Below are positions 9,278 to 30,427 of a stretch of 64,000 nucleotides of DNA, in pieces. Origin of the DNA: Longimicrobium sp. (GTDB lineage: Bacteria; Gemmatimonadota; Gemmatimonadetes; Longimicrobiales; Longimicrobiaceae); contig DASVTZ010000214.1 in assembly GCA_036387335.1 (NCBI GenBank), positions 1 to 64,000 of the forward strand, written 5' to 3'. Each line of letters begins with the position of its first letter. Within the stretch, counting starts at the first letter, position 1. The notes below the pieces were generated by a model. That model was not told where the DNA came from. It ran no database searches and worked only from the letters and a program-made list of their open reading frames with translations. A program made the position numbers and the translations under genes.

Positions 9278-9282
9278 GACGT

Positions 9283-10434: not shown

Positions 10435-10469
10435 CACCGTCTCCATTGGGTCGAGGTTGGGTTGCCGCG

Positions 10470-11903: not shown

Positions 11904-11935
11904 CTATCTTCTTCGTTCGAGAGTGTTCGGAAGCA

Positions 11936-12421
11936 TCACCGCGCGGCCGCGGCGCCGCGCTTGAGCCGGCGCAGCGTGCGCTCCACGCTCCGCGTGGCGA
12001 AGGAGTGCAGCCGGCAGAGGACGCGGAACCGCTCGCCCACCACCGGGTTCTGCGCGGCGGTGGTTCGCGAGCCCAGGTCCGCCGCGTCGCGCAGCCGCCG
12101 CATCCACTCCAGGCGCCGCTCCAGCATCATCACCGCACCGTCGGGGCGTGCGCGGTAGAAGTCGCGCCGGTCGCCGGGTCGGCTCACCTGCTCCACCACG
12201 CCCCACTGCTCCAGCAGGCGGGCATTGGTGCTGACGCTCGCCTTGCTGGCCTGCACCCGCTCCGCGATCTCGTCCAGCGACAGCTCCTTCGGGCTCAGCA
12301 GGAGGAGCGCGGCCATCCGTCCGGCCGTCCGCGAGCCGCCATCCTGCTCCACCAGCCGCGCGAAGTGCTCGATGAACTCGTCTTCGTGCAGCGGAGGTCC
12401 TTCAGTGCGTTCAGTATGCAT
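11936..12421 (-). CDS. GbsR/MarR-type transcriptional regulator, second of a pair
   Basis: 161 residues. An N-terminal helix (EDEFIEHFARLVEQDGGSRTAGRMAALLLL) precedes a winged helix (SLDEIAERVQASKASVSTNARLLEQWGVVEQVSRPGDRRDFYRA). That layout is typical of the GbsR branch of MarR-like repressors. It is a clear paralogue of the upstream gene: both share SKxSVSTNARLLExWGV and RPGDRRDFYR. No good ribosome-binding site precedes the ATG. The first codons overlap the 13-bp GTGCGTTCAGTAT element that is also found before the first regulator. Probably represses the downstream efflux genes. Confidence 0.85.
   Translation of the reverse strand: MHTERTEGPPLHEDEFIEHFARLVEQDGGSRTAGRMAALLLLSPKELSLDEIAERVQASKASVSTNARLLEQWGVVEQVSRPGDRRDFYRARPDGAVMMLERRLEWMRRLRDAADLGSRTTAAQNPVVGERFRVLCRLHSFATRSVERTLRRLKRGAAAAR
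12405..12417. promoter_or_regulatory. 13-bp regulatory element, copy 2
   Basis: GTGCGTTCAGTAT on the plus strand, covering codons 2-6 of the second regulator gene. The identical 13-mer occurs on the minus strand at 12977-12989, upstream of the first regulator. Candidate binding site for one or both GbsR/MarR proteins. Confidence 0.45.
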
Positions 12422-12466
12422 TATACGTCACGTGTACGAGATCTGTTTCGGCGTGCCGCGTTCCGC

Positions 12467-12919
12467 CTACTCGGCCGGGCGCCGCAGCTCCTCGCGAAGG
12501 CTCATCAGCGAGCGGATGGCCGCGCGGTTGAAGGTCACGGCCCTGCCGAAGCGCGCGCTCACCTCCGGGTCCAGCGGGCCCAGCGCCTCGCGCGACCGTT
12601 CCAGCCGCTCGATCATGAGCTCGATGCGCCCGAGCTGCCGCTCGATCAGCCGCTCGGAAAGGTCGGGGGCGATGCGGTAGAAGTCGCGCCGGTCGCCGGG
12701 CCGCGTGATCCGCACGGCGACGCCCCAGTCCTCCAGCAGCCGCGCGTTGGTGCTGACGCTCCCCTTGCTCACCTGGAGACGCTCCGCGATGTCGTCGAGC
12801 GAGCACGGCTCCTCACCCAGCATCAGGAACCCGAACACCCGCCCCGCGATCCTGGGAACGCCCTCTTCCTCGAAGTGGCGCCCCATGACATCGATGAATT
12901 CGTCCCGCGCGTCCGCCAT
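12467..12919 (-). CDS. GbsR/MarR-type transcriptional regulator, first of a pair
   Basis: 150 residues from the ATG at 12919, which has GGGGAG 2 bases before it; an in-frame ATG at 12943 would add eight residues. The N-terminal helix FIDVMGRHFEEEGVPRIAGRVFGFLML is followed by the winged helix SLDDIAERLQVSKGSVSTNARLLEDWGVAVRITRPGDRRDFYRI. Head of the five-gene regulator/efflux operon (regulator, regulator, outer-membrane protein, adaptor, permease). Two tandem paralogous regulators are unusual; they may form heterodimers or sense different ligands. The operator candidate lies about 50 bases upstream. Confidence 0.85.
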   Translation of the reverse strand: MADARDEFIDVMGRHFEEEGVPRIAGRVFGFLMLGEEPCSLDDIAERLQVSKGSVSTNARLLEDWGVAVRITRPGDRRDFYRIAPDLSERLIERQLGRIELMIERLERSREALGPLDPEVSARFGRAVTFNRAAIRSLMSLREELRRPAE

Positions 12920-12967
12920 CGCTCCCCAGAGGTTCCGTTTCAAGGTGCAACCTACATCTACCCGATC

Positions 12968-15788: not shown

Positions 15789-15817
15789 TTGGAAAACGGC
15801 CGCGATGCGACTATGAT
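15789..15817 (+). promoter_or_regulatory. Sigma70-type promoter for the GGDEF gene
   Basis: TTGGAA (15789-15794), 17-base spacer, TATGAT (15812-15817), 33 bases before the ATG at 15851. Confidence 0.6.
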
Positions 15818-15850
15818 TCGGTCGCCGCACCATCCTTCCCGGACCTTTCC

Positions 15851-17719
15851 ATGCGACAGCTCTCCCTCGCCCTCACCGCGGCCATGCTGGCCGCGGCGCT
15901 CACCCTGTCCGCACAGGCACCCGCCGCGCCGGGGTGGCTGGCGGATGCGCAGCGCCTGGAGGACGCCGACCCCGACTCCGCGTACGCGCTGGTGCGGCGC
16001 GGCCTTCCGAGCCTGCGCCCCGGGCCCGAGCGGATGGCGGCGCTCGCCCTGCGCTGCTGGACCGCCGCCTCCGCCGCGCCCGACTCCGTGCTCGCCCACG
16101 CCGCCGCGGGGATGGCCGAGGCCGCGCGCCACCGCGACGCCCTCGCGCTCGCGAAGCTGCGCGTCTGCCGCGGCTACGGGCTGGAGGATGCCGGCAAGCC
16201 GCTGGAGGCGCTGGCGGACTACGACTTCGGCGTGGCGGAGGGGCGCCGCCTGGGCGCGCGCGACCTGGCCGCCGTGGCCCTCCTGCTGCGCGGGCAGCTC
16301 CGCTACTACCGCGGCGACTTCACCCCCGCGCTCGCCGACCTGGACGAAGCCTACCGCACCTTTGCGGCGCTCGGCGACGAGCCGCAGCGGCGCAGCGCCC
16401 TCAACTCCATCGCCAACCTCTACGCGGACGGCCGCGTGGCGCAGTACGACCGCGCGCTGGAGTACTACCGCCAGGTCCTCGCCTCCAACCAGCGCGGCGG
16501 ATCGCGGCGAGGGATCGCGACGGCGCACTTCAACATGGGGAGCACGCTGGAGCGCATGGGCCGCCTGGGCGAGGCGCTGGCCCAGTACCGCCGCGGCCTG
16601 GAGATGGACGTCCGCCGCGGCGACTCGGCGGAGGTGGCGGTCGACCGCCGGGCGGTGGGCGTCGTGCTCTACAAGCTGGGCCGCCCCGCCGATGCGCTGG
16701 CGGAGCTCGAGCACGTCCGCGCCTACGCCGCGCGCGCCGCCGACGTGGAGCTCGCGGCCCAGACCCGCCTGTCGCGCGGCGTGGCGCTGCGCATGCTCGG
16801 CCGCACCGCCGAGGCGCTGGACGAGCTGGAGCGGGCGCGCGCCCACTTCCAGGCGACGGACAACCGCCGCTTCCTGGAAAAGGTGCACGAGGAGCGCGCC
16901 CTGGCCTACGCCGCCCGCGGCGCCTGGCGCGACGCGTACCAGGCCCGCGGCGAGCAGATGGCCCTGCAGCGCGCCCTGGAGGCGGGCGCCAACCAGGAGC
17001 AGAGCACCCGGCTGCGCGTGCGCTTCGACGCGGACAAGAAGGAGGCCGAGAACCGCGCCCTTCTCCGCGAGAACGCGCTGCGCCGCCAGGCGATGGCCGC
17101 GGCGGGGCGGGTGCGGCGGCTGCAGGTGGCGGTGCTCGTGCTGAGCGCGTTCGTCATCGGCGCGCTGGTGCTGCTGGCCGTGCGCCAGGTGGCCGGCGCC
17201 CGCCGCCTGCGCGCCATGGCGCTCACGGACGAACTGACCCGCCTCCCCAACCGCCGCCACCTCCACCTGCTGGCCGACGCCGCCGCGCGCACCGCCCGCT
17301 CGCGCGGCACCGCCTTCTCGGTGCTGGCGCTGGACGTGGACCACTTCAAGAGCATCAACGACCGCTTCGGCCACGACGCCGGCGACACCGTCCTGCGCCG
17401 CGTTGCCGACGCCGCGCGCCGCGCCCTGCGCGAGGGCGACCACCTGGGCCGCACCGGCGGCGAGGAGTTCGTCGCGGTCCTCCCCGATGCCCCCGCGTCC
17501 GCCGCGCACCCGGTGGCGGAGCGGCTCCGCGCCGCCGTCGAGCGCACCTCCTACGCGGACGTAGACCCGGCGCTGGTGGTCACGGTGAGCGTGGGGATCG
17601 CCGCCTGGGCCCACACGGACCCGGACTTCCACGCCACCTTCCGCCGCGCCGATGACTCTCTCTACCGCGCCAAAGCCGCCGGCCGCAACCGCGTGGAGCT
17701 GGCGCCGTCGGCCGACTGA
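15851..17719 (+). CDS. TPR-TM-GGDEF diguanylate cyclase
   Basis: 622 residues. Signal peptide (LALTAAMLAAALTLSAQA), then about 370 residues of TPR-like helical repeats (ATAHFNMGSTLERMGRLGEALAQYRRG), a coiled coil, one TM segment (about 425-445) and a GGDEF domain. The active site reads GGEEF at about 536-540, a catalytic variant. An RxxD inhibitory site (REGD) sits exactly five residues before it, so product feedback by cyclic di-GMP is expected. Topology suggests periplasmic TPR sensing coupled to cytoplasmic cyclic-di-GMP synthesis. It has its own promoter and no obvious operon partner. Confidence 0.9.
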   Translation: MRQLSLALTAAMLAAALTLSAQAPAAPGWLADAQRLEDADPDSAYALVRRGLPSLRPGPERMAALALRCWTAASAAPDSVLAHAAAGMAEAARHRDALALAKLRVCRGYGLEDAGKPLEALADYDFGVAEGRRLGARDLAAVALLLRGQLRYYRGDFTPALADLDEAYRTFAALGDEPQRRSALNSIANLYADGRVAQYDRALEYYRQVLASNQRGGSRRGIATAHFNMGSTLERMGRLGEALAQYRRGLEMDVRRGDSAEVAVDRRAVGVVLYKLGRPADALAELEHVRAYAARAADVELAAQTRLSRGVALRMLGRTAEALDELERARAHFQATDNRRFLEKVHEERALAYAARGAWRDAYQARGEQMALQRALEAGANQEQSTRLRVRFDADKKEAENRALLRENALRRQAMAAAGRVRRLQVAVLVLSAFVIGALVLLAVRQVAGARRLRAMALTDELTRLPNRRHLHLLADAAARTARSRGTAFSVLALDVDHFKSINDRFGHDAGDTVLRRVADAARRALREGDHLGRTGGEEFVAVLPDAPASAAHPVAERLRAAVERTSYADVDPALVVTVSVGIAAWAHTDPDFHATFRRADDSLYRAKAAGRNRVELAPSAD

Positions 17720-17756
17720 CGCGACGGCGCGCCCGCATCATGTATCCCGAAGCAAC

Positions 17757-18080
17757 TTGAGTAAAAACGCGTATCGCGCGTGGGGTGCCGGCGCCGCGCC
17801 GAAACGTCCGATCGGCACGTTCCCGCCGAGCGTGCGGAAGGCGGCGGAGTCCGTCAATGAGCGGGTTGATTTCAGGGAAGGTCCGGGGTACGTTGACTGG
17901 GTCGTCTCCTCGGGCGGGTGGCTCTCGAGGCGCGACGGTGTGGAACCCTTCCCGCCGCATTCGCTCCATTGCAGATACGAGGTCGGCCATGATCTCGGGT
18001 GCGCCGAACGTCAGCGCCCTCCCGGGCCGGCACGGCCGCGCGCAGCCATGACCTCCGGTGGCCCGGCGCGAAAGGCGTGA
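17757..18080 (+). CDS. Possible small protein preceding the biosynthetic locus
   Basis: A 107-codon frame beginning at a TTG (first residues SKNAYRAWGAG), weakly supported by GC-rich third positions in its first half. It resembles nothing I know; it ends 94 bases before the aminotransferase gene. It contains two cysteines close to the end and an aromatic stretch GPGYVDWVVSS. It could be a small accessory or precursor peptide of the locus, or not coding at all. No convincing ribosome-binding site is present. The rest of the 17720-18174 gap shows nothing clear. Confidence 0.2.
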   Translation: MSKNAYRAWGAGAAPKRPIGTFPPSVRKAAESVNERVDFREGPGYVDWVVSSGGWLSRRDGVEPFPPHSLHCRYEVGHDLGCAERQRPPGPARPRAAMTSGGPARKA

Positions 18081-18174
18081 GTAAGCGCACCCGCCGCATC
18101 ACGCGCACGGCCCCTCCCCCTATTCGCGCCGTTATCATGTACGCCACCCACCACATCGGCGCTGTACCGGGCCC

Positions 18175-19260
18175 GTGGCTCTTCGCGTGAACTCGCCCAA
18201 AGCTTCCACGCCGGGCGGCGGCCGATGTGCGTCGTACGCGCATCCCGCCGTGCATTCCGAGATGCTGGCCGCACGCGTGGCCCAGCGCCTGGAGGGGCAC
18301 ACGGGACTCCCCGTGGAGCTCATGTCCAGCGGCTCGGCGGCACTGGAGTGCGCCCTGCGCGTGCTGGAAGCTCCGCCCGGTGCGCGCGTGCTGGTGCCCA
18401 GCGTCGGGTGCGACGCCATCGCCATGAGCGTGCTGAACGCGGGAGCCACTCCCTCCTTTTACGAGATCGACGCCGAGCTGCGCATGCACCTGGGCCCCGA
18501 TGCGCGGGACGCGTTCGCCGTGGTGGTGAACTACCCCTTTGGATACGTGCCCGAGGGTGGCGAGCCCGCGCGCCTGGAACCGTTGCGGCGCGCCGGGGTT
18601 CGAGTGGTAGCCGACTGTGCCCAGGCATTCGGCACGCGTGTGGACGACCGCCCCGTGGGGAGCCTGGCCGACGTGGCCGTTTACAGCTTCGCCGATGGCA
18701 AGCACCTCTCCTGCGGCGAGGGAGGCGCGCTCGCCGCCGCCGACCCCGCGCTCCGCGAGCGCGCGTGGAGCTTCGCGCACGCGGCGCGGGTGCGCGGATC
18801 GTTCGACCGGGCGGCGTGCGGCCGCAATTTCGCCATGGCGCGCCCGGTCATGGCCGAGTTGAACCGGTGTCTGGACAGGTGGCCGCGCGACGCGGCGCGG
18901 AGGCTGGAGCGCGCCCATCTCGCGCGGGCGAGGCTGCGGGGCGCCGCGGTGCGGATCGTAGAGCCCGCGAACGACGCCGTGGTGGTGCCGCTCAAGCAGG
19001 TGATGCGGCTGGAGGAGCCCACTCCCGCGCACCGGGCCGCTGTGGCCCGTGTGGCGGCCGAGTTTCGCTTCGTGCAATCGTGGTGGCCGCGAGTGCCGAT
19101 GGAAAAGAGCTACCTGGGCGGCCGTCACCTGCCCTTCGCCTCGATCTCCACGTGGCGGGAGAGCGCTTTCACCCTCTCCCTCTCGCCCGCGGTGCCGCGG
19201 GACGAGTTCCGCCGTGGGCTCGCCGCGCTCAGCTCTGCCCTTTCCGGCACTGCCTCCTGA
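18175..19260 (+). CDS. DegT/DnrJ/EryC1/StrS-family PLP aminotransferase (first)
   Basis: 361 residues if the GTG at 18175 is used; a GTG at 18187 is also possible and there is no early ATG. Fold type I motifs of this family are present: SSGSAALECAL (phosphate loop), VVADCAQAFG (the Asp that binds the pyridine nitrogen) and SFADGKHLSCGEGG with the Schiff-base lysine. These enzymes aminate keto-sugars or cyclitols, or act as PLP-dependent dehydratases. It is short for the family (usually 370-400). First gene of a five-gene coupled operon; its stop overlaps the next ATG by one base. Confidence 0.85.
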   Translation: MALRVNSPKASTPGGGRCASYAHPAVHSEMLAARVAQRLEGHTGLPVELMSSGSAALECALRVLEAPPGARVLVPSVGCDAIAMSVLNAGATPSFYEIDAELRMHLGPDARDAFAVVVNYPFGYVPEGGEPARLEPLRRAGVRVVADCAQAFGTRVDDRPVGSLADVAVYSFADGKHLSCGEGGALAAADPALRERAWSFAHAARVRGSFDRAACGRNFAMARPVMAELNRCLDRWPRDAARRLERAHLARARLRGAAVRIVEPANDAVVVPLKQVMRLEEPTPAHRAAVARVAAEFRFVQSWWPRVPMEKSYLGGRHLPFASISTWRESAFTLSLSPAVPRDEFRRGLAALSSALSGTAS

Positions 19261-21164
19261 TGCACGCACCGGCCATCATCCCCGCCGCCGCCTGGGTTCC
19301 CCTCGAAGACGCCTGGCGCGCGACGTGGGGGGGTGATCCCAAGTTCTACGGACTTGCCGTAGCGGCGCTCTTTCGCCTCGGCGTTCCCGCGGGCGCGCTG
19401 GTGCTGGGCGCCCCCGGGTGGGACGCGGACACCGCCGAGCGCGCCGCCGCCGAGGCCATCGCCTGGATCGAATCCGCCGAGGGGAGGCCCGTAGGCGCGG
19501 CTGGGCCCGACGGCATCCCGCTCCTCCTGACCGTGCGCTTCGGCGACAAGTACTCGGATCCGCGCAAGCCGCCCTCCGTCTCGCTGATCGGCGCCGCCGC
19601 ACCGCGCACCTCCGCCGAGGCCGAGGCGCACCTGCGCGCCTTTCTGGGCCGCATCGACGCCGCCGGCCAGTACGACGCACTGGCCGCTCTGCCGCCGGCG
19701 GCACGCGCGGCGCGCATCGCGGCCCTGGGCTTCGCGCGGCTGGTGGAGCTGGGGGTCGAACGTCCGCAGGTGCTGCTGCAGCGTGCGGCCGTGACCGTGG
19801 ATGCGCCCGATAGCGGACACGGAACGGCGTACACGCGGCACCCCCAGACCGCCGCGGAGATGGACTACGGGCGCTACATGTGGGATGCCACCGGCCACGA
19901 GTTCGATGCGCGCTCGGGCGATCCACGCAAGCGCGACCTGTCCGTGCTGGCCGACGAGCACCCCGCGTCGTACGCGCGCCTCCGCTCGGTGCTGGCGTTC
20001 GTGGAGGCGTATTTCCAGGAGATCCGCTTCGTGGAGTTCGGACTGGAACGCGGCCGGCTGTACATCTTCCAGGTGACCCCCCGCAAGCGCGCCGAGGGCA
20101 CGATGCCTTCCATGCGGCGGCTCCCCCCCGTCAGCGGAGAGGTGAGCGATCCTCCGCCCGCACCCCTTCCCGGCGAGTGGCGGGAGCTGCGGATGGAGGG
20201 GCTGGCGGTGCGCGTGGGTGCAGGCGCGGCGGCGGAGGCCATACGAGAGGTGTCCGTGGCGGCGGACCCGCCGGGCGCGGATACGGCGGAAAGCTGGCTG
20301 CTCACGCTGGAGGAGGGGACGTGGCCCGCGGATCCGCCGCCGGGTGGCGTACCCCGGGTGATGGAGCGCAGCGTGCACGGGGTGCACCGGATCGCGTGGA
20401 GCGTGGCGCGCGCGCACACGGAGTGGATCGTGGAATCACGCTGGGGATCGGCGCTCCGCATCGAGCCTGGCACGCGGACGCTGCGGGTGCACGGCCCCGC
20501 GCGCGCCGCGGCCGACCTGGCGGCGCACACCGTGGAGGCGCTCCGGCGGGAATACCTGGAGGCGCACGGCTGGGCCTGTCTCCATGCTGCCTCGGTGGAG
20601 ATCGCGGGGCGGGCCTGGTTGCTCGTCGGCGACAAGGGCGCGGGAAAAACCACCCTGCAGCTCGCGCTGCTGGACGCGGGCGCCCGCCTGCTGAGCGCCG
20701 ATCGCACCTGGGTGGCGGCGGGAGCGGCCGGCCCCGCCGCCCGGCGCGGGCCGGGAGCGCTCCGCGTTACCGGGCACACGCTGGCCCTGGTTCCCGGCGT
20801 CGTCGAGACGGGTGGAGGAAAGCCCTCCGTGGGAAGCGGGAAGTACACGCTGCCGCTCGCGCGCTTCGCGGCCGCGGGAATGCTTTCCGGGTCCGCGCGG
20901 CTCCCGCTGGGCGGATACGTCTTCGTTCGCCGTGGCGAAGGCGCGGCCGGGTGGCGTGTACGGCCGGCGGCGGCGGACAGCGCCGCCGCGCACCTTATGG
21001 CCGGCCCAGCCGACCACCAGCAGCGGTGGCTGCACGCCTGGCGCTGGTGGGGCGCGGGCTCGCCACCGGCGATCCCCGCGGCTCCCGCGTGGAGCCTGGA
21101 GGGTAGCGGCAGCGCCGCCGAGGCCGCGCGCCGGGTAATGGACGTGCTGGCCGGGGAGGGGTGA
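19260..21164 (+). CDS. Fusion: PPDK-like nucleotide-binding domain + HPr-kinase-like P-loop domain
   Basis: 634 residues. Residues 1-285 resemble the N-terminal nucleotide-binding part of pyruvate phosphate dikinase: LLLTVRFGDKYSDP, GHGTAYTRHPQTAAE, then FVEFGLERGRLYIFQVTPRKR. The phosphohistidine and PEP/pyruvate domains are absent. Residues about 290-430 are an undefined linker. Residues 435-634 resemble HprK-type kinases as found in lasso-peptide and other peptide clusters: LHAASVEIAGRAWLLVGDKGAGKTT (Walker A at about 457-465) and GARLLSADRTWV. The ATG overlaps the previous stop (TGATG). I infer a kinase acting on a pathway intermediate or peptide. I know of no characterised protein with this domain pairing. 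Confidence 0.7.
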   Translation: MHAPAIIPAAAWVPLEDAWRATWGGDPKFYGLAVAALFRLGVPAGALVLGAPGWDADTAERAAAEAIAWIESAEGRPVGAAGPDGIPLLLTVRFGDKYSDPRKPPSVSLIGAAAPRTSAEAEAHLRAFLGRIDAAGQYDALAALPPAARAARIAALGFARLVELGVERPQVLLQRAAVTVDAPDSGHGTAYTRHPQTAAEMDYGRYMWDATGHEFDARSGDPRKRDLSVLADEHPASYARLRSVLAFVEAYFQEIRFVEFGLERGRLYIFQVTPRKRAEGTMPSMRRLPPVSGEVSDPPPAPLPGEWRELRMEGLAVRVGAGAAAEAIREVSVAADPPGADTAESWLLTLEEGTWPADPPPGGVPRVMERSVHGVHRIAWSVARAHTEWIVESRWGSALRIEPGTRTLRVHGPARAAADLAAHTVEALRREYLEAHGWACLHAASVEIAGRAWLLVGDKGAGKTTLQLALLDAGARLLSADRTWVAAGAAGPAARRGPGALRVTGHTLALVPGVVETGGGKPSVGSGKYTLPLARFAAAGMLSGSARLPLGGYVFVRRGEGAAGWRVRPAAADSAAAHLMAGPADHQQRWLHAWRWWGAGSPPAIPAAPAWSLEGSGSAAEAARRVMDVLAGEG

Positions 21165-22123
21165 TGTCCGCCCCCTCGGTTCCGAGCCCCGCGCTGGAGC
21201 CCGCGGACGCCGTGCGCCGGATGTACGGGCGCACGCTGGAGTGGTTCCACGCCACGTACGCCACCACCGCCGCCCCGGACCACACGCCGGGAGTGGTCGC
21301 CACCACCGCCGCGTGGCCGCTGGCCGGGGCCGAGCGGCTGGTGTGCGGCGGGCCCTGCCTGGACCACGCGCTTCCCGAAGGCGCGCCCGGAGTGAGCCTT
21401 CAGATCGCCGTGGAAACGGCCATCTGGCTGGAATACGCCGCCCGGACCGGACACCCGCTCTTCCTGTTCGTGATGGGTGGCGCCTCGGCCGAAGGGGAAG
21501 ATCGCCCCGCGTGGGAGGGGATGCTGCGCGCCTTCCGCGCGTTCGTCGACGATCTCCGCGCCCACCCTCTCATGGCGGCGCCGCGGGTGCACCTGGAGCC
21601 CACCTGGACGCGTGCCGCCGCATGGGCCGCGGCGCGCGCCGAGCTCTGCGCGGGGGTCGCCACCGCCCGCTACGACACCCTGTACCAACCGGTCCGGCCG
21701 CTCGACGCCGTGCGCGGCGAGCCGCTGCCCCGTGAGCTGGAGCGAGCATACCAGGACAACCTGCTGGCCTATCACCCGGCCATGGTCGCCCGGCTCAGTC
21801 CCTGGCCCTTCGAGCGGCTGCAGCACCTGGAGAACCTTCAGCAGCTTCGCGCCTACGCACTGGCCGCGCGCATCTTTCAGCTCGACGCCGCCGTGAACGC
21901 CCACACCAGCTTCCTTCCCATGACTTCCCCGGACGGGTCCATTCGGCTCACCCGCGCTCCCGGCGACGCGCGCCTCCCCGCGCGGCTGGGCGCCGCCGTG
22001 CTGCGGCGCCAGGCTATGGAAGAGCCCAACCTCCGCGGCTACCTGGATGCGCACCTGCCGCCCGCACTGCACGACCTCGTGGTGGAGCGCTTCTCCGCGC
22101 GCTTCGCGCCGGGGGTGGCGTGA
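21164..22123 (+). CDS. Unrecognised protein of the biosynthetic locus
   Basis: 319 residues; the ATG at 21164 follows GGGGAGGGG by 2 bases and overlaps the previous stop. It has no signal peptide or membrane segment. The composition is rich in Ala, Arg, Leu and Trp, with segments such as GVSLQIAVETAIWLEYAARTG, HPLFLFVMGGASAEGED and ERLQHLENLQQLRAYALAARIFQLDAAV. I do not recognise a family. Its place between two kinase-like genes, with overlaps on both sides, argues for a dedicated enzyme or complex partner in the same pathway. Confidence 0.75.
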   Translation: MSAPSVPSPALEPADAVRRMYGRTLEWFHATYATTAAPDHTPGVVATTAAWPLAGAERLVCGGPCLDHALPEGAPGVSLQIAVETAIWLEYAARTGHPLFLFVMGGASAEGEDRPAWEGMLRAFRAFVDDLRAHPLMAAPRVHLEPTWTRAAAWAAARAELCAGVATARYDTLYQPVRPLDAVRGEPLPRELERAYQDNLLAYHPAMVARLSPWPFERLQHLENLQQLRAYALAARIFQLDAAVNAHTSFLPMTSPDGSIRLTRAPGDARLPARLGAAVLRRQAMEEPNLRGYLDAHLPPALHDLVVERFSARFAPGVA

Positions 22124-23046
22124 GCGCCTCGGCGGCCCTGCGCGCGGGGTGGAAGATCGCGGCTTCGCCGCGCTCCGACGACCTGGGGGTCAACAACCGC
22201 GTATGGCAGGTGGGGCGGCGGTTCTGGCTACACTGCTACGACCCGGACGACCTTCCGTGGCGTGAGCGGCAGGCGCGGCTCGTGGAGGCGCTGGGCCAGG
22301 TCGCCGCGCGCGAGGGGGCGGAGCTGCGCGTTCCCCAGACGGTGCCTCCGCTGGGGGGAGGGCTCTTCCACCGGGACGAGGAGGGCGCCTGGCAGCTCAC
22401 CCACAACGTCCCCGGCCGCCGGCCCGATCCGCTCCACGGCGCCGAGTACCCGGCCGTGGCGGGCGGCCTCGCGCGGCTGCACCGGCTCCTGGGGCAGATC
22501 GATCCATCGCTGGCACCCGCGCCCACCACGCTCCGGGGCGACCTGCAGGCCAACCTGGCGCGCCATCGAGCCGAAAGCGGCGACGCCGCGTTCGCGGCGA
22601 TGGTGGAGCCCGCGGTCGAGAGGGTGGAGGCGTGGCTCCCGCGCCTGCTGTCGCTCCCGGTGCAGGTCATCCACGGCGACTTCTCGCACCCCAACCTGAA
22701 GCTCGCGGGGCGGGGCGCTGCCGCCGAGCTCACCGGGGTGATCGACTTCGAGTTCTGCAGCGCCGATCCGGCGGTGCTCGACCTGGCCACCGTGGTGCTC
22801 ACCCTCCTCCTCCGCGGCCCCGGCCGCGGTGCCGATGCCCGGATCGGCGCGATGCTGGATGCGTACGCCGCCGCGGGGGGGGTGGAGGTCGGGGCCGATG
22901 ATCTGTGGCCGGCGCTGCTGGCGCGCAAGCTCGACAGCTACTGGCACCACGGCGAGCGGGCCAGGCGCGATCCGGCGGCGCGCCCGGTCGCCGAGCGCCA
23001 GGTGGAGCAGCTACGCCGTCTCCTGGGCTTCCTGGACGCGCGATGA
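22120..23046 (+). CDS. Aminoglycoside phosphotransferase-like (APH-fold) kinase
   Basis: 308 residues from GTG 22120 (GTGA overlap). The C-lobe motifs of the APH/choline-kinase family are clear: VIHGDFSHPNLKL (catalytic HGD and Asn) and GVIDFEF (metal-binding Asp). The N-lobe nucleotide loop is less distinct (NNRVWQVGRRFWLHCYDP). Such kinases phosphorylate aminoglycosides, homoserine, sugars or cyclitols. In this operon, phosphorylation of a sugar or cyclitol intermediate, or self-protection, is plausible. Confidence 0.85.
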   Translation: MSASAALRAGWKIAASPRSDDLGVNNRVWQVGRRFWLHCYDPDDLPWRERQARLVEALGQVAAREGAELRVPQTVPPLGGGLFHRDEEGAWQLTHNVPGRRPDPLHGAEYPAVAGGLARLHRLLGQIDPSLAPAPTTLRGDLQANLARHRAESGDAAFAAMVEPAVERVEAWLPRLLSLPVQVIHGDFSHPNLKLAGRGAAAELTGVIDFEFCSADPAVLDLATVVLTLLLRGPGRGADARIGAMLDAYAAAGGVEVGADDLWPALLARKLDSYWHHGERARRDPAARPVAERQVEQLRRLLGFLDAR

Positions 23047-23849
23047 CCTCCGGCGTACGTGTCCGCCGCGCGGAGTGCCGGCCCGAGCGGCTGGACGAGG
23101 TGCGGGCCGCGGGCTTCGTCCACGTGGAGTGGGAGTGGTCGTGGAACGGCGCCGGCTCCAGCCCCGTGCCATCCGCGGGCGAGCTGGCGAGTGCCGCTCG
23201 GGCGCTGGCCGGCGCGGGGCTCACCTGCAGCGTGGCCGGCCCCACGGGGATCTCGGTGGCCGAAAAGGTCGACCCGCTCCGGGCCGTTTCCACCCGGCTC
23301 TGGCGCGAGCTGTACCAGGCCGCGGGGGAGCTGGGAGCGCGCTGGGTGGTGCTGGAGCTGGGCCAGGCGCGGTGCGCACCCGATGAGACGGAGAAGCGCC
23401 GCCGGCGGATCGACCTGGCGCGTCCCGCCCTGCACGCCATCCTCGAAGGCTCGGATGGCGGGCCGCTTCTGCTGGTGGAAAACCAGCGCCGCCTGGATCC
23501 CGTGCTGGGGCGGACCTACCTGGGAGACCATGCCGCCGACCTGGTTCACCTTCTCGACGGCCTCCCCCCCGAGCGCGCCGGGATCATGTTCGATGCCGGC
23601 CACCCGCTCATCGGCCAGGACCCCCTGGCCTTCCTCGAAGGCGTGGATCCCTGGATCCGCGCGGTGGCGCTGCACGCCAACGACGGGGTGCGCGACGAGC
23701 ACCGCGCACTCGAGCCCGGCGACGTGGACCGGCACCCGGCATACTGGCACGGGCTCGCCCGCCGCGCCGCGGGGCTCCCCGTCGTAGTGGAAATCGACGA
23801 CCTGGATGCGGCCCGCAGTTGCTGGCACACCTTCTCCCATCTCCCCTGA
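23043..23849 (+). CDS. Sugar phosphate isomerase/epimerase-like TIM barrel
   Basis: 268 residues, ATGA overlap with the preceding gene. The pattern is that of the xylose-isomerase-like (AP endonuclease 2) family: strands ending ...GFVHVEWEW, LLLVENQRR (Glu ligand), GIMFDAGHPLIG (Asp, His ligands), VALHANDGVRDEHRALEPGD (His ligand) and VVVEIDD (final Glu). The metal-site residues are therefore largely present. Members act as inosose isomerases, hydroxypyruvate isomerases or epimerases. Next to DegT aminotransferases this favours cyclitol or sugar chemistry. Confidence 0.8.
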   Translation: MTSGVRVRRAECRPERLDEVRAAGFVHVEWEWSWNGAGSSPVPSAGELASAARALAGAGLTCSVAGPTGISVAEKVDPLRAVSTRLWRELYQAAGELGARWVVLELGQARCAPDETEKRRRRIDLARPALHAILEGSDGGPLLLVENQRRLDPVLGRTYLGDHAADLVHLLDGLPPERAGIMFDAGHPLIGQDPLAFLEGVDPWIRAVALHANDGVRDEHRALEPGDVDRHPAYWHGLARRAAGLPVVVEIDDLDAARSCWHTFSHLP

Positions 23850-23864
23850 CCGTCGCCTACGCCC

Positions 23865-25106
23865 ATGATGAACAGCCCTCTCGCCCTTCACGGCGGCGCC
23901 CCCGTCCGTCCGACGTACAAGCCCGCCCGCCCGCGGGTTCCAGCCGAAGCCCGCGACGAAGTCCTGCGCGTACTGGACGACGGCACGCTGGCCCGCTTCT
24001 ACGGCGGCACCCACGTCCGCGCGCTCGAGGCCGAGTTCGCCGCCTGGTTCGGGCGCAGCCACGGCGTGGCGGTGAACTCCGGGACGTCGGCGCTCCACGT
24101 GGCCTACGTGGCGGCCGGCCTTCCCCCCTTCTCCGAGGTGCTGGTACCCGCCAACGCGTACATCTCCGCGATCACCGCGCTCATCCAGAGCCACCTGGTG
24201 CCGGTGATCGTCGACGTCGATCCGTCGAGCTGGGTGATGGACCCCGTCGATGCCCGCCGCAAGCTCACGTCCCGCACCTCGGCCATCGTGCCGGTGCACA
24301 TGTACGGGCAGCCGTGCCCAATGGACGACCTGCTGGAGCTGGCGCGGGCACACGGGCTGTGGGTGCTGGAAGATTGCGGGCAGGCTCACGGCGGCATGTG
24401 GAACGGGCGCCTGCTGGGGAGCCTGGGCGATGCGGCCGCCTACAGCGTGTGCTGCCGCAAGCACGTCACGTCGGGCGAGGGAGGGCTGGTGATCTCGGAT
24501 TCGGCCGCGCTGGTGGAGCGCGCCCGCAGCCTGGCTCACAAGGGGAAGGGTGACGGCTGGTTCGAATATCTGGAGATGGGCTTCAGCTACAACATGACCG
24601 AGGTGCAGGCGGTGCTGGCCCGCCACGGCCTGCGCGCCCTGGAACACGAGACGCAGACCCGTCAGAAGTTCGCCGCCGGGATCCGGGCCGCGCTGGATGG
24701 GCTCGGCCTGGAGTTCCCCCACCTGGGCGAAGGGTCGGCGCACGCATACTTCAAGTTCAACTTCCTCCTCCCGCGTGAGCTCGGCCCCTGGCGCAACGAG
24801 ATCGTCACGGCGCTGCGGCGCGAGAACGTGGGCGCCGACCCCGCGCATCCGTACGTGCTGGAGATCGACTGGCTGCGGAACCAGGAGCCGCTTCTCTACT
24901 CACAGATTACCGAGGGGCGGCCCTGCTATGCTCGTGAAAGCTGCCCCACCGCGCTGGATGTGATGGCCCGCCAGGTGGGGCTGGAACTGGGGCCGGGGCT
25001 GGACCAGGAAGACATCGAGTACACCATCGCCGCCGTGCGCAAGGTGATCCCGTGGTACGCCCAGAACCATGCGCGGCTCGGGAGTCCCACGGTCGTCTCC
25101 ATATGA
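23865..25106 (+). CDS. DegT/DnrJ/EryC1/StrS-family PLP aminotransferase (second)
   Basis: 413 residues (a second ATG follows directly). Motifs: LALHGGAPVRP near the N-terminus, VNSGTSALHVAY (phosphate loop), VLEDCGQAHGG (Asp) and YSVCCRKHVTSGEGGL (Schiff-base Lys). The N-terminal motif and overall length are close to the L-glutamine:scyllo-inosose aminotransferase/AHBA-synthase branch, as far as can be judged by eye. It is full-length, unlike the shorter first aminotransferase, so the two probably act at different steps. 15 bases after the isomerase gene; last gene of the plus-strand arm. Confidence 0.9.
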   Translation: MMNSPLALHGGAPVRPTYKPARPRVPAEARDEVLRVLDDGTLARFYGGTHVRALEAEFAAWFGRSHGVAVNSGTSALHVAYVAAGLPPFSEVLVPANAYISAITALIQSHLVPVIVDVDPSSWVMDPVDARRKLTSRTSAIVPVHMYGQPCPMDDLLELARAHGLWVLEDCGQAHGGMWNGRLLGSLGDAAAYSVCCRKHVTSGEGGLVISDSAALVERARSLAHKGKGDGWFEYLEMGFSYNMTEVQAVLARHGLRALEHETQTRQKFAAGIRAALDGLGLEFPHLGEGSAHAYFKFNFLLPRELGPWRNEIVTALRRENVGADPAHPYVLEIDWLRNQEPLLYSQITEGRPCYARESCPTALDVMARQVGLELGPGLDQEDIEYTIAAVRKVIPWYAQNHARLGSPTVVSI

Positions 25107-25135
25107 CGCGCTCCGCGTAAGGCAGCGTCACGCAA

Positions 25136-25170
25136 ACGGAGGTCCGGGAACCATTCTCCCGGACCTCCGT
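25136..25170. terminator. Hairpin between the convergent arms of the locus
   Basis: Perfect 14-bp arms, ACGGAGGTCCGGGA (25136-25149) and its complement (25157-25170), with a 7-base loop. It sits between the convergent stops at 25106 and 25202. There is no T-tract, so the termination mechanism is inferred. Confidence 0.65.
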
Positions 25171-25201
25171 CGCTCCTTGGGTCGTGGCCCCGCCGCACGG
25201 C

Positions 25202-26836
25202 TTACACGGCAGGCATCGCCGTAAGGAAGCGCGAGACGATGGCCGACTGCCCGGTGCACTTGTAGCTGTCGGTCATGCGGGCGCGGAGCGATTCCAGAAC
25301 GTTGCCGTCTTCCCCGGGGGTGTTGATCATGCGGTGAATCCGCTCGCCCACCTCCCCGCGATGGTCGCGCAGGATGGCGCGGAGGATGGAGGTCACCCGC
25401 TCCAGCCCGTCCGTCTCGGGGAGTCCGGGGGGAACCGCGAACTCGTCTCCGAACCCGCTGAAAGCCATGCAGCGCCCGGGTCCCAGCTCGTGGGCGTACT
25501 GCTCGCTGATCAGCGCCTGGCTGTAATTCTGCGGCAGCACGAAGTGCGGGATTTTACCCAGCGCCATCGCCTCCAGCGTAGTGGTGATCCCCGGAGAGGT
25601 GAGCACCACGCGGGCGGTGGACAGCCGCTCCACGAACTCGCGGTGCGGAAGGTGGCCGATGCGGACCCCGGTGCGCGTGCCCAGCCGTCCGCGCAGCCGT
25701 GCCGCCAGACGCTGGTTGCAGCAGACGGTGACCTCACCCTCCCCCACCGACTCCAGCACCTGCCCCACGATGAGGTCGGCGTATTCATCGTACAGCGCGG
25801 GATCGACGAACGGATTGGCGCACCCGCCCAGGCTCACCAGTACTTGGTCGTCCGGTGCATCCGCTCGCCGCGTAACGTAGTCGGCCGTCGCCTCGATCGG
25901 CGCCACCACCTCGATGGGAAGGCGGCTGGACCATTCCCGCAGCCGGCTCGGCGGCACCAGGTAATCCTGCACGAAGTAGCGGGTCGCGTGCTCGATCCCC
26001 GGCGGGGGGCCGGGCCACATCCAGGCCAGGCTGTCCACCATGTACAGCGGCGTGCGGCGCCCGGCCCAGAAGGGAAGAATGTCCAGGTTGAGCACCGAGA
26101 ACACGGCCTGATACGCCTCCAGATGCTCCGCGAGCGACGCCAGCACTTCGGGCCGGTCCACGTCCACGCGATACACCCGGTCGAAGGCCGGCGAGGTGCG
26201 CGCGAAATCGTAGTCCAGCCCGGCGCCGAAGCAGTGCAGGGTGATGCCCGGGCGCCGCCGTTTGATTTCGGCCGCGATCGCCACCGCCTTGGAGATGGGG
26301 CCGAAGCCGAACGCCGAGGAGAGGAAGGCGCAGCTCTCGCCCTGCGCGGCCGCGGGCGCGCGCTCCTCGCGCAGCTCATGCACGGCGGCCAGCAGCGCGT
26401 CGTGCAGAGCCGCCTGCGCCGCCACGTCCGTTCGCGCTTCGGCCGCGGCGGGCACGAAGATGCAGCGGCCCACGGAGGCCAGCCCCGCCAGAAGCGCCGT
26501 GGTGTCGCGCCCCCCTTCGGGCACCACGATCACCATCGGCTTGTCCATGGCGCTTGCCCACCCGAGTTCCAGGTGCACGCCGTAGCTGTCTTCCGCCAAC
26601 GCCACCACACAGTCGGCGCGCTGCATCTCCAGCATGTCGAAGGGGGTGCAGACGGAGGCGGCGCGCAGCTTCGCGCCGTACTCCTCCAGACGAAGCGCCA
26701 GAAAGACGTCATGCCCCGCGTGCTGCAGGGCCGTGTCGATCCCTTTGATGAAATGCGCGTATGCCGGTTCGACGGAGGGTACGGGGCCGTCGTGCCGAAG
26801 GTACCCGGTGATCGGGCACGCGAAGAAGATCCGCAT
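25202..26836 (-). CDS. Fusion: nucleoside 2-deoxyribosyltransferase-like domain + GT-B glycosyltransferase
   Basis: 544 residues. Residues 1-150 resemble nucleoside 2-deoxyribosyltransferases: MRIFFACPITG, IDTALQHAGHDVFL, DMLEMQRADCVVALAEDSYGVHLELGWASAMDKPMVIVV. The glutamate in GVHLELGWA fits the family nucleophile. Residues about 165-544 form a GT-B fold like MurG/family 28: LSSAFGFGPISKAVAIAAEIKRRRP (acceptor domain start), ..., TVCCNQRLAARL, GHLPHREFVERLSTARVVLTSPGITTTLEAMALGKIPHFVLPQ (donor-binding region). 45 bases downstream of the radical SAM gene. Predicted to make or transfer an N-glycosyl or sugar unit. I know of no precedent for this fusion. Confidence 0.7.
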   Translation of the reverse strand: MRIFFACPITGYLRHDGPVPSVEPAYAHFIKGIDTALQHAGHDVFLALRLEEYGAKLRAASVCTPFDMLEMQRADCVVALAEDSYGVHLELGWASAMDKPMVIVVPEGGRDTTALLAGLASVGRCIFVPAAAEARTDVAAQAALHDALLAAVHELREERAPAAAQGESCAFLSSAFGFGPISKAVAIAAEIKRRRPGITLHCFGAGLDYDFARTSPAFDRVYRVDVDRPEVLASLAEHLEAYQAVFSVLNLDILPFWAGRRTPLYMVDSLAWMWPGPPPGIEHATRYFVQDYLVPPSRLREWSSRLPIEVVAPIEATADYVTRRADAPDDQVLVSLGGCANPFVDPALYDEYADLIVGQVLESVGEGEVTVCCNQRLAARLRGRLGTRTGVRIGHLPHREFVERLSTARVVLTSPGITTTLEAMALGKIPHFVLPQNYSQALISEQYAHELGPGRCMAFSGFGDEFAVPPGLPETDGLERVTSILRAILRDHRGEVGERIHRMINTPGEDGNVLESLRARMTDSYKCTGQSAIVSRFLTAMPAV

Positions 26837-26881
26837 TCTGTTCGTGGGGAGTGGTATGAGACGTGGGGACGTGCAGGGGGG

Positions 26882-27931
26882 CTAAAGCCACTGGGCGTCG
26901 GGCCAGCCCGCCGCGGACAGCGCCAGGTCTGCATCGCGGTTGAAGCGGACGTTGCCGGGCTCGCAGCCGGTGCACACCTGCGAAGCCACCGACGCGAACG
27001 CCGCGCGCTCGCCGGCGAAGCCCGGCTCGTTCCAGCTCTCGCCGAACGGCCGGTCCCACACGCCTTCCAGGCTGAGCGGCCTGCCGCGGCGGTGCGGAAG
27101 GCAGTTGCACGCGGTGAGCAGGCCGCGCCGGGCATCGATGTAGCCCACCACGTCGGGAACGAAGCACCGGGTGTGAGTGGGCAGGCGGCCTCCCGCCGAC
27201 GCCACGCGGGCGGCGTCGCTGGTGCCGAAGACGTGCGGGCTCACGGCGTTCAGCCGCACGCGTGCGCGCTCCAGCCGCGCCTCGATGCGGGGGACGACCG
27301 AGGCGGAGAACTCGTGCGCTTCTTCGGCCGTAAGATACAGGCTCTTCTTGTCTTTGATGGGGATCAGGGTCCAGAAGTCCACGCCGATGCGGTCGAGCAG
27401 CGGAACGAATTCGTGGATGTCTCGAAAGGTCTCGGCGGAGACGATGGTGTTTACCGTGATGGGCAGGGAGCGGCCGCGGCGCGCGCGTTCCGTGGCGAGA
27501 GTCTCGAGCCCCGCGATCGCCGCCGCAAAGAGGCCGGGGGTGCGGCGCAGTCCGTCGTGGATCTCGGGGCGCGGCGAGTCGAGCGAGCAGGTGAGCGCGG
27601 AGAGACCGGCGTCCAGCAGCGGTGCGGCCATCTCGGCCAGACGGCTTCCGTTGGTGATGAGGCTCACCCGCAACCCCGCCGCGCGTACCTCGGCCACCGC
27701 CTCCAGCAATCCTTCGTGCAGCGTGGGCTCACCGCCGGTAAAACGCACCTCCTCGCCGCCCAGCGCCGCCAGCTGCACCGCGAGCGTGCGCACCCGCTCA
27801 ACCGCCAGCCGGAAAGGATCGCTGGAGTTGGCGAACGGGCACATCCGGCACCCGGCGTTGCACGCCTCCAGGATACGTACGTAGACGATTTTGGGGCTCG
27901 TCCGCTGGAATACGGGAAGAGGCGCGTTCAT
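26882..27931 (-). CDS. Radical SAM enzyme with C-terminal cysteine motif
   Basis: 349 residues. The SAM-cluster motif is C24-x3-C28-x2-C31 (CNAGCRMC), followed by FTGGEPTLHEG (66-69 GGEP) and LITNGSRL. The C-terminal third has further cysteines (CFVPDV; CNCLPHRRG; CTGCEPGN) that may bind an auxiliary cluster, as in SPASM/twitch proteins. The start at 27931 was chosen because the longer frame runs through a hairpin and has no coding character. First gene of the minus-strand arm. Substrate unknown: a peptide, sugar or cyclitol modification would all fit. Confidence 0.85.
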   Translation of the reverse strand: MNAPLPVFQRTSPKIVYVRILEACNAGCRMCPFANSSDPFRLAVERVRTLAVQLAALGGEEVRFTGGEPTLHEGLLEAVAEVRAAGLRVSLITNGSRLAEMAAPLLDAGLSALTCSLDSPRPEIHDGLRRTPGLFAAAIAGLETLATERARRGRSLPITVNTIVSAETFRDIHEFVPLLDRIGVDFWTLIPIKDKKSLYLTAEEAHEFSASVVPRIEARLERARVRLNAVSPHVFGTSDAARVASAGGRLPTHTRCFVPDVVGYIDARRGLLTACNCLPHRRGRPLSLEGVWDRPFGESWNEPGFAGERAAFASVASQVCTGCEPGNVRFNRDADLALSAAGWPDAQWL

Positions 27932-28118
27932 AAGACGACGTTTTGGCAGGTTGGCCCACGGGCGGTCGCACTCCAGCAGAAACGCTCTCGGAAAGAATTG
28001 CCGAATGTTCTTGTTAGCGCAAGGATGCCGGCCGTGGCCACGGACCAGAGAAAAACCTCGCGGTCCTCCGCCGCGAGCGCAGCCTGCGTGCTGCCCGCAC
28101 CGAGGATCTGAGAAGCCA

Positions 28119-28150
28119 GCAGGGGTCGTGCACCTGTGCACGACCCCTGC
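28119..28150. terminator. Hairpin terminator after the DacB-type gene
   Basis: Perfect 14-bp arms GCAGGGGTCGTGCA (28119-28132) and complement (28137-28150), loop CCTG. It lies 107 bases past the stop of the peptidase gene and upstream of the radical SAM gene, isolating the two. The rest of 27932-28256 shows no gene. Confidence 0.6.
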
Positions 28151-28256
28151 TTTCGATCCGCGGCAGACCCCTGGAGTAACGCACTTTTAATGTTCGACGT
28201 GTGCCCCCTCCGGGTGGCCGCAGAGGCGTCTCAACGTCCAGCGGGCGCGGAACGGC

Positions 28257-29750
28257 TCATCGTCGCTCAGCGCCCGTACGCGGGTGGTTGTACACGCGCA
28301 GCAGCGCCGCTTCCGCCAGGCGGTCCGCGGCGGCGGCGGAGAGGGTGTGGTTGTTGACGAGGATGGAGAACACCATGCGCTCGCCAGCGGCGGTGGTGAG
28401 GTAGCCGCTCAGGGAGCGCACGCCCGAGAGGGTGCCCGTCTTGGCGTGCACGTTCCCCGCGAGCGGTGTCCCCTTCATCCGGTTGCGCAGGGTGCCGTCG
28501 ACGCCGGCGACGGGCATGGCGGCGTAGAAGACGGCGTAGTTGGGGCTGCGCGTCATCCGCTCCAGCAGCGCCACCAGGTGCTCAGGTGCCACCAGGTTGT
28601 AGCGCGACAGGCCGCTGCCGTCCGCCGCGCGGAAGCCGCCGCGGGGGAGCTGCCACGCGCGCGCCAGCGAATCCTCCACCGCGAGCCCCGCCTGCGCGGT
28701 GCCGGCGTTGCGGATGCGGCGGCCCATCGTCTTCAGCAGGATCTCGCCGTACTGGTTCTGGCTCGGCTTCAGGAAGGCGGCCAGCACCTCCGGCATCGGC
28801 GGGGAGGCGTGGACGAAGAGCGGCGCGGCGGGGCGGCGAGCCGTGTCGGGGCGCGCGTCGTCGTCCAGCGCGGGGCCGTCCACGCGGATCCCGGCCTCGA
28901 TCAGCGCCTCTCGCAGCACGTGGGTGAAGAAGAGCGTGTTGTCGCGCACCGCCACCTCGATCTCCTCCGGCGTGGAGTCGGGCGGGGCGGTGCCGGTGAC
29001 CACGATGCCGGGGCCGAGCGGGGCGCGCGTCGCGTCCACGTTGCGGGCGGAGCCGGATGCGCCGGTCGTCGCATTCACGGTGACGGGGAGGTACGCCGTG
29101 GCGGGATCGAGGGTGACGACGGCGGGAGCGCCGGGACTCGGGCCGGGGCCCACGCGCACGGTGACGTACCCCTCGTTGAGCTGCAGCCCACCGATCTCGG
29201 CGGAGTACGACGCGTCCAGGTCGTCCCACGCCCAGCCGCGGCCCAGCGGCACGTCGTCGAAGACGTCGTCGTTGCCCACGACCGCGCCCGCGATGCGTGT
29301 GATGCCGCGCGCCCGCAGCGAGTCCGCCCAGGCGCGGAAGAGGGGGCGTGCGCCGCCGAAGCGCGCGGAAATCGTAGGATCGCCGCTTCCCCGCACCACC
29401 AGGCTGCCGGCCAGCACGCCGTCGCGAACGGGGCCCTCGGCCTCCACCGGGGTGCGGTAGCGGAAGTCCGGCCCCAGCGTCTCCAGCGCGGAGGCGCCGG
29501 TCACGATCTTCTGATTGGAGGCGGGGACGAAGAGCTTCTCCGCGTTGCGGCGGTAGAGCGTCTCGCCCGTCTCCAGCGAGCGGACCATCACGCCCCACTC
29601 CGCGCGGGCGAAGAGCGTGTCGCCGAAGATGGAGTCGAGCGCGACGGCGATCGGCGCGCGGGCGGGGGCCGGGGCGAGCGCGGGGCGTGCGGGAGCGCAG
29701 GCGCCCAGCGCGAGCGCCGCGGCGGCGACGAGGGTTCGTTGCGGGGTCAT
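28257..29750 (-). CDS. dacB: D-alanyl-D-alanine carboxypeptidase/endopeptidase (PBP4, S13 family)
   Basis: 497 residues with a lipoprotein-type signal (LALGACAP). All three penicillin-binding motifs are present: SxxK in VPASNQKIVT, SxN in KPSQNQYGE and KTG in VHAKTGTLSG. The insert between motifs 1 and 2 (VRGSGDPTIS, GRGWAWDDL) is typical of PBP4. It trims or cleaves peptidoglycan cross-links in the periplasm. The ATG overlaps the stop of the upstream GNAT gene by 4 bases. The length matches the family. Confidence 0.92.
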   Translation of the reverse strand: MTPQRTLVAAAALALGACAPARPALAPAPARAPIAVALDSIFGDTLFARAEWGVMVRSLETGETLYRRNAEKLFVPASNQKIVTGASALETLGPDFRYRTPVEAEGPVRDGVLAGSLVVRGSGDPTISARFGGARPLFRAWADSLRARGITRIAGAVVGNDDVFDDVPLGRGWAWDDLDASYSAEIGGLQLNEGYVTVRVGPGPSPGAPAVVTLDPATAYLPVTVNATTGASGSARNVDATRAPLGPGIVVTGTAPPDSTPEEIEVAVRDNTLFFTHVLREALIEAGIRVDGPALDDDARPDTARRPAAPLFVHASPPMPEVLAAFLKPSQNQYGEILLKTMGRRIRNAGTAQAGLAVEDSLARAWQLPRGGFRAADGSGLSRYNLVAPEHLVALLERMTRSPNYAVFYAAMPVAGVDGTLRNRMKGTPLAGNVHAKTGTLSGVRSLSGYLTTAAGERMVFSILVNNHTLSAAAADRLAEAALLRVYNHPRTGAERR

Positions 29751-30427
29751 CGGGCCGGGTAGGGGCGGGCGAGCATGCCGAGGAGGCGCGCCTCGACGGC
29801 GGGCCATTCGTCGTCCACGATGCTGTACCACGCGGTGTCGCGCACGCGGCCGCTCTCGGTGACGCCGTGCTTCCGAAAGATCCCTTCTTCGCGCGCGCCG
29901 ATGCGGAGCATGGCGTTACGGGAGCGCTCGTTCAGCGCATCCGTCTTGAGCTCCACGCGCAGGCAGCCGAGCGTCTCGAAGGCGTGGCGGAGCATCAGGA
30001 GCTTGGCCTCGGTGTTGGCGGCGGTGCGCTGCCACGGCCGCCCGATCCACGTCCAGCCGATCTCCACGCGCGGGTGAGGCGGCTCGACGCTGGCGAAGCG
30101 CGTGCTCCCGATCACCCGCCCCGTCGCCGCCTCGGTGGTGGCGAAGGGGAGCGCCGTGCCCGCGTCGCGCATGCGGAGCGCGGCGTCTACGTAGCGCTCC
30201 AGGTCGGCCTCGGTGCGTACGGCGTTCCACGTCCAGCGCCACAGCTCCTCGTCGCGCGCCACCTCCCAGAGCGCGGGGAGGTGCTCGCGTGTGAGCGGCA
30301 CCAGGCGGACGTGCGTGCCTTCGAGGGTGACGGGCGCGAGCTTCACGGGCGGCTCCGAAATGGGGTGCCCGGTGAAAGTAGGTGGAAGCCGCGGGATGGG
30401 ACAGGCTTCAGCGATCTCGTCGCGCAT
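29747..30427 (-). CDS. GNAT-family N-acetyltransferase (RimJ/RimL type)
   Basis: 226 residues. Pattern of the RimJ/RimL branch: VTLEGTHVRLVPLTREHLPALWEVA at the start, GRVIGSTRFASVEPPHPRVEIGWTWIGRPWQRTAANTEAKLLMLRHAFETLGCLRVELKTDALNERS (core with the acetyl-CoA loop), and a final GIFRKHGV. It could acetylate ribosomal proteins or small molecules. Coupled to dacB by ATGA. The first 28 residues are not conserved-looking, so a start slightly downstream is possible. Confidence 0.85.
   Translation of the reverse strand: MRDEIAEACPIPRLPPTFTGHPISEPPVKLAPVTLEGTHVRLVPLTREHLPALWEVARDEELWRWTWNAVRTEADLERYVDAALRMRDAGTALPFATTEAATGRVIGSTRFASVEPPHPRVEIGWTWIGRPWQRTAANTEAKLLMLRHAFETLGCLRVELKTDALNERSRNAMLRIGAREEGIFRKHGVTESGRVRDTAWYSIVDDEWPAVEARLLGMLARPYPAR

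Follow-up and report, generated by a model that had tools for sequence, protein, structure and literature searches.

A divergent gene cluster for probable cytosine-nucleoside biosynthesis in Longimicrobium, with relatives in the Paenibacillaceae

The eight genes at positions 18175-27931 of the window, i.e. of the whole analysed stretch of 64,000 nucleotides from Longimicrobium sp., probably form a discrete cluster for the biosynthesis of a cytosine nucleoside akin to blasticidin S and mildiomycin, and they represent a divergent sub-type of such clusters (we put the probability of this reading at roughly 70%). The initial annotation had missed the pathway class, and it can be named since the fusion protein g7 and the radical SAM protein g8 appear to correspond to the trio of CMP hydrolase, cytosylglucuronate synthase and cytosylglucuronate decarboxylase of blasticidin S and mildiomycin biosynthesis. 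We speak of a divergent variant, and only conditionally of the sugar donor and the decarboxylation, because both the C-terminal part of g7 and g8 score well below the curated cut-offs of their families. The likeliest product is an amino(deoxy)pentopyranose that is N-glycosidically linked to cytosine and carries further modifications. Previously, an aminocyclitol or aminosugar, possibly attached to a peptide or a nucleoside base, had been suggested: the aminosugar and the nucleoside base are indeed likely ingredients, but nothing supports the aminocyclitol.

Layout and surroundings of the locus

The locus consists, as the initial annotation had it, of eight genes in two convergent arms. Six genes lie on the plus and two on the minus strand, and all eight reading frames are open (GC3 0.86-0.91). 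The plus arm (18175-25106) starts with g1 (18175-19260), which encodes a divergent DegT/DnrJ/EryC1/StrS aminotransferase of 361 aa (PF01041, E=1.4e-29) and has a GTG start codon of uncertain position. It is followed by g2 (19260-21164) for a fusion of a PPDK ATP-binding-domain-like and an HPr-kinase-like part, g3 (21164-22123) for an orphan protein of 319 aa with a GGPC motif, g4 (22120-23046) for an APH-type kinase of 308 aa (PF01636, E=1.3e-19), g5 (23043-23849) for a xylose-isomerase-like TIM-barrel protein of 268 aa (AP_endonuc_2, PF01261, E=5e-13), and g6 (23865-25106) for a second DegT/DnrJ/EryC1/StrS aminotransferase of 413 aa (PF01041, E=2.4e-79). The junctions between these genes are -1, -1, -4, -4 and +15 bases, in agreement with the overlaps of one to four bases and the 15-base gap described before. 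The minus arm (27931-25202) comprises g8 (26882-27931), encoding a BlsE-like radical SAM protein, and, after a gap of 45 bases, g7 (25202-26836), encoding a fusion of a BlsM/MilB-like CMP hydrolase and a cytosylglucuronate-synthase-like glycosyltransferase. Pfam supports the names that had been given to the two DegT proteins, the APH kinase, the isomerase-type TIM barrel and the radical SAM protein, and we likewise find the window to be free of NRPS, PKS and lasso genes. The spacer of 95 bp between the arms contains a perfect 14-bp hairpin (25136-25170, fold z = -3.58), and with the two arms converging on it, this hairpin is a probable two-way terminator. A scan for sigma-70 promoters gave zero sites, and the GC content of the cluster resembles that of the surrounding DNA.

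The comparison with the genome G903 (L117) of the same genus reveals an empty site: The two flanking genes, one for a GGDEF protein and the other for a PBP4-like carboxypeptidase, with 84-87% identity to those of the window, are direct neighbours in this genome, only 327 bp apart, and the cluster is absent. Over the flanks of the locus (15811-17704 and 28264-30083), the window matches L117 at 86-87%; in place of the DNA between them (17705-28263), L117 has 327 bp that contain repeats. This empty site identifies the cluster as a discrete unit that has been gained or lost. Since most of the gene set recurs in four Paenibacillaceae genomes (see below) and is cleanly missing from the congener, the grouping of the eight genes goes beyond chance. 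Among 395 genomes of the phylum, g7 (E<=1e-10), g8 (E<=1e-25) and g3 (E<=1e-3) were detected only in the window's own genome; the fusion gene, a BlsE-like radical SAM gene (E<=1e-25) or g3 was present in 0 of the 394 others. The blasticidin/mildiomycin-type loci that we recovered are mostly actinobacterial, and the locus lies in a phylum in which such clusters are rare.

Two further features of the window may be mentioned here. Tandem and inverted repeats of the TCTCTGTG type are located at 37443-37499 and 57959-58088, and the empty site of G903 is filled by repeats of this kind. An RND efflux operon occupies 6077-12943: the permease gene (6077-9277) and the genes at 9283-10473 and 10470-11903 are preceded by a tandem pair of similar small regulator-like genes (11936-12421 and 12467-12943).

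Predicted chemistry of the encoded proteins

The two parts of g7 suggest how the pathway might begin. What had been described as a deoxyribosyltransferase-glycosyltransferase fusion is a fusion, but its parts can be defined more closely. The N-terminal part (residues about 1-150) is of the CMP N-glycosidase type: its top PDB matches are BlsM (5vto, E=1.9e-16) and then MilB, and the Pfam family Nuc_deoxyrib_tr is found marginally below its curated cut-off. In MilB numbering, with the positions counted back from E103 along the MilB chain, E62, D78, S97, G99 and the catalytic E103 are kept and the base-stacking Phe22 is replaced by Ile, i.e. five of six catalytic or substrate-binding residues are retained if Arg23 is left aside. 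Arg23 of MilB recognizes the hydroxymethyl group (PMC4081090). As this position is occupied by Thr rather than by Arg or Lys in g7, plain CMP and not hydroxymethyl-CMP is the expected substrate. For the C-terminal part (residues about 170-500), the best and nearly sole family is cytosylglucuronate (CGA) synthase (TIGR04467, E=1.1e-22), and the score of 80.7 bits compared to a cut-off of 300 places it outside the equivalog. Very probably, the N-terminal part would split CMP to cytosine and ribose 5-phosphate, and the C-terminal part would then use the cytosine and a UDP-sugar, for which UDP-glucuronic acid is the likeliest candidate, to form cytosylglucuronic acid. UDP-glucuronate is suggested as the donor by the gene for a UDP-glucose dehydrogenase that adjoins a related cluster in Paenibacillus helianthi (L018). 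The fused protein may pass free cytosine directly to the glycosyltransferase, and g7 offers a natural test of a direct hand-over from the hydrolase.

The carboxylate at C5' of the sugar would next be stripped off by g8, and this step, which we propose with moderate confidence, would yield a cytosyl pentopyranoside. The top family of g8 is indeed the cytosylglucuronate decarboxylase BlsE (TIGR04466, E=9.4e-48), which with 163 bits is by far ahead of the runner-up (72 bits), and the top PDB chain is a decarboxylase as well (7vob, E=8e-38). The cysteines and the GGEP residues of BlsE have been proven to be essential (PMC3715490), and all these motifs are retained in g8 (CxxxCxMC at 24-31, GGEP at 66-69), as are the auxiliary cysteines (further Cys residues at 256, 275, 277, 320 and 323). 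However, 163 bits is far from the cut-off of 400 for the decarboxylase equivalog, and in the radical SAM tree g8 groups with Paenibacillus proteins (100/100), which score similarly low (163-166 bits for g8 and these relatives), apart from the actinobacterial BlsE clade. Moreover, the counterpart in the Paenibacillaceae genome G495 reaches a score of just 84 with TIGR04466 and is matched better by another family. Cytosine might thus be released and glycosylated as proposed, and g8 might catalyze a different reaction such as an oxidation, an epimerisation or a dehydration, so that a six-carbon sugar or sugar acid is kept; given the family ranking and the conserved motifs, we regard this as unlikely. 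An even more different role, that of a prokaryotic viperin in a defence island for the production of modified nucleotides, comes to mind since the pVip models of PADLOC match g8 (E=2.6e-23) and nucleotide chemistry is encoded close by. We reject it on the model scores: g8 reaches 69.5 bits with the viperin model, far under its cut-off of 180, as compared to 163 bits with BlsE, and the other seven proteins do not match any defence model, leaving this role a negligible probability.

If g8 is a decarboxylase, the remaining proteins could act on the resulting pentopyranoside, and here both the order and the substrates are our guess. The DegT aminotransferases g6 and g1 may aminate the sugar and/or remove hydroxyl groups, with g5 perhaps acting as an isomerase or epimerase. 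We liken this step to the MilD/MilG route in mildiomycin biosynthesis, in which the two proteins are thought to produce a 4'-amino, 2',3'-unsaturated sugar, with the late steps unproven there as well (PMC11784345). DegT aminotransferases, which are also present in blasticidin S and mildiomycin clusters, are encoded twice. In the DegT tree, g6 falls among the DegT genes that adjoin BlsE-like radical SAM genes. The placement of g1, next to the second DegT protein of the related clusters, is less certain. Finally, the two parts of g2, the APH kinase g4 and g3 might serve to activate the product, to decorate it or to mask it; g4 is also a possible self-resistance gene. The kinase fusion that had been proposed for g2 holds as a fusion and is now refined to a PPDK-like part (residues about 1-280; NCBIfam PPDK, E=4e-12) and an HPr-kinase-like part with a P-loop at 457 (HprK-related kinases, E=4e-6), with all scores far under the cut-offs. 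In g4, the motifs HGDxxxxN and IDFE are intact, as are the P-loop of g2 and the PLP lysines of the two aminotransferases (K176 in g1, K199 in g6), and these four gene products therefore look functional.

Related clusters in the Paenibacillaceae

A scan of genome contigs with g7 as the sole query found no relatives. They were reached through an alignment of the radical SAM proteins, which was scanned against the genomes of 84,980 species and yielded 42 mainly actinobacterial loci. The top three are from Paenibacillus sp. A3 (L016), P. oleatilyticus (L017) and P. ehimensis (L054), and their radical SAM proteins are 54-55% identical to g8. Within about 16 kb, each of them contains genes for a PPDK-like and an HprK-like protein, two DegT proteins, a CMP hydrolase, a glycosyltransferase and a g3 homologue. 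Gene by gene, the A3 cluster was annotated: An APH gene, which corresponds to g4 at the level of the family, adjoins the g3 homologue, and there are additional genes for Asn synthase, PALP, FA hydroxylase, HAD phosphatase, Acetyltransf_6 and NRPS condensation-adenylation proteins (the APH, HAD and NRPS assignments refer to this one of the three clusters). The fourth Paenibacillaceae genome, G495, encodes two DegT proteins, a glycosyltransferase, a radical SAM protein, a CMP hydrolase (58% identity with its Paenibacillus counterpart) and homologues of g3 and g5 (E=8e-23 for g5). Its PPDK-like and HprK-like genes are adjacent with an overlap of four bases, and no APH gene was seen in the 36 kb that were read. 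The halves of g2 are separate genes in all four clusters, and both g2 and g7 join genes that are found individually in other genomes. The recurrence of the set in several genomes, which had been proposed as a check, is largely borne out by the three Paenibacillus species and the further Paenibacillaceae genome, with the exception of the APH gene in the latter. This set of helper genes was otherwise seen only in a few Paenibacillaceae genomes.

The same comparison bears on whether the two arms belong together. A strong hairpin separates them, they are encoded on different strands, and counterparts of g4 and g5 were not detected in every related cluster, so that the minus arm might make a cytosine glycoside next to an unrelated aminosugar/kinase operon. 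Yet, counterparts of both arms share one cluster in the three Paenibacillus genomes and in G495, and G903 lacks the two of them at its empty site. The co-occurrence argues effectively against separate pathways, which had been named as grounds for dropping the initial reading and which we consider quite improbable: the two arms are one pathway, and the claim of a single biosynthetic locus stands, as the set recurs in the Paenibacillaceae and is absent as a block in the congener. It is possible, though in our view doubtful, that the locus and the four Paenibacillaceae clusters form a second branch of cytosine-nucleoside biosynthesis that separated long ago, with phosphorylated intermediates (made by the PPDK-like/HprK-like proteins and APH), the wholly new g3 family, an altered radical SAM reaction and an unknown nucleoside class.

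No relative of the g3 family is known, and the family is now tied to a concrete pathway. Searches of Pfam and PDB assigned g3 to no family. The pairwise link to the Paenibacillus homologue is weak (BLASTP, E=0.03-0.05), but the comparison of profiles makes it clear: the hhalign score with the Paenibacillaceae cluster gene is 54, as compared to at most 19 for 40 shuffles and for nine decoys. In plasmids, viral contigs and samples of its own phylum and the Paenibacillus phylum, g3 was not found beyond the window's own genome and the Paenibacillaceae cases. A resemblance to class I tRNA synthetases, noticed by eye, was discarded as the profile matched the tRNA-synt_1b families no better than column shuffles did. 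The AlphaFold models are of low confidence, with a mean pLDDT of 42 for g3 and 36 for the Paenibacillus homologue.

The Paenibacillaceae comparison isolates a co-inherited core of CMP hydrolase, glycosyltransferase, radical SAM protein, two DegT proteins, the PPDK/HprK pair and g3, and thereby makes the later steps testable, i.e. the amination/deoxygenation after decarboxylation and the role of the kinases. In the literature searched, which left out most subscription journals, we found no report on such clusters in Paenibacillus or on BlsE genome mining, and no product of the Paenibacillus clusters; an earlier report could have been missed.

Several other loci are worth recording. The G495 cluster (L062:13132-17465) contains a second radical SAM/SPASM gene, an arginase-family gene and a gene for a 202-aa orphan beside the kinase pair. 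Compact CGA-type clusters are present in P. helianthi (L018:6343-15319) and Anoxybacillus (L030:732-7012), with genes for a glycosyltransferase, an ATP-grasp ligase, a radical SAM protein, Acetyltransf_6, one DegT protein and a CMP hydrolase; the former also carries an MFS gene. A trio of a BlsE-like radical SAM protein, a DegT protein close to g6 and a CGA-synthase-like glycosyltransferase is encoded in Desulfatitalea (L047:7595-10950), a Lysobacterales MAG (L051:9959-13324) and Plantactinospora (L053:9128-13357). The search for a CMP hydrolase gave no match in the first two of these loci, which are for this reason perhaps a related set that acts on another substrate. A plasmid of Streptomyces microflavus (L013:7517-18103) carries two DegT genes, a LOG-family gene, a P-loop/histidine-phosphatase fusion and an Asn-synthase-like gene, has no radical SAM gene, and encodes the most window-like glycosyltransferase among the annotated plasmid clusters; it is possibly another cytosine-nucleoside variant.

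Comparison with known systems

The blasticidin S pathway (BlsD, BlsE, BlsM; L014 of Kitasatospora sp. NBC_00039) shares with the locus the CMP hydrolase, the CGA-synthase-like glycosyltransferase, the BlsE-like radical SAM protein and a DegT protein. In contrast to blasticidin S clusters, the glycosyltransferase of the locus is fused to the hydrolase, and two DegT proteins as well as g2-g5 are encoded, whereas the blasticidin S genes blsF and those for the arginine 2,3-aminomutase, the carboxylate-amine ligase and the MFS transporter are absent. Overall, no homologues of a transporter, a peptide ligase, blsF or blsG were seen in the cluster. The family scores are far under the equivalog cut-offs: the Kitasatospora counterparts reach 575 (CGA synthase) and 662 (decarboxylase), those of the window 81 and 163.

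With the mildiomycin/arginomycin-type clusters (MilB, MilC, MilG, MilD; L012 of Streptomyces sp. NBC_00467), the locus has the core trio and a DegT protein in common. In contrast to mildiomycin, the eight genes include neither a MilA-like CMP hydroxymethylase nor genes for the arginine side chain, and Pfam finds no thymidylate-synthase-type family in any of the eight proteins. Since mildiomycin proper involves CMP hydroxymethylation and Arg or Lys at the position of MilB Arg23, the Thr in g7 sets the locus apart.

A Rhodococcus plasmid (L011) has adjacent CMP-hydrolase-like and CGA-synthase-like genes and DegT genes as in the window, but NDP-deoxysugar genes in place of a radical SAM gene; from its gene content, we take this cluster to be amicetin-like. 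The closest relatives of the locus are the clusters of the three Paenibacillus species and G495, which differ from it in that the hydrolase and the glycosyltransferase, as well as the PPDK-like and HprK-like proteins, are unfused.
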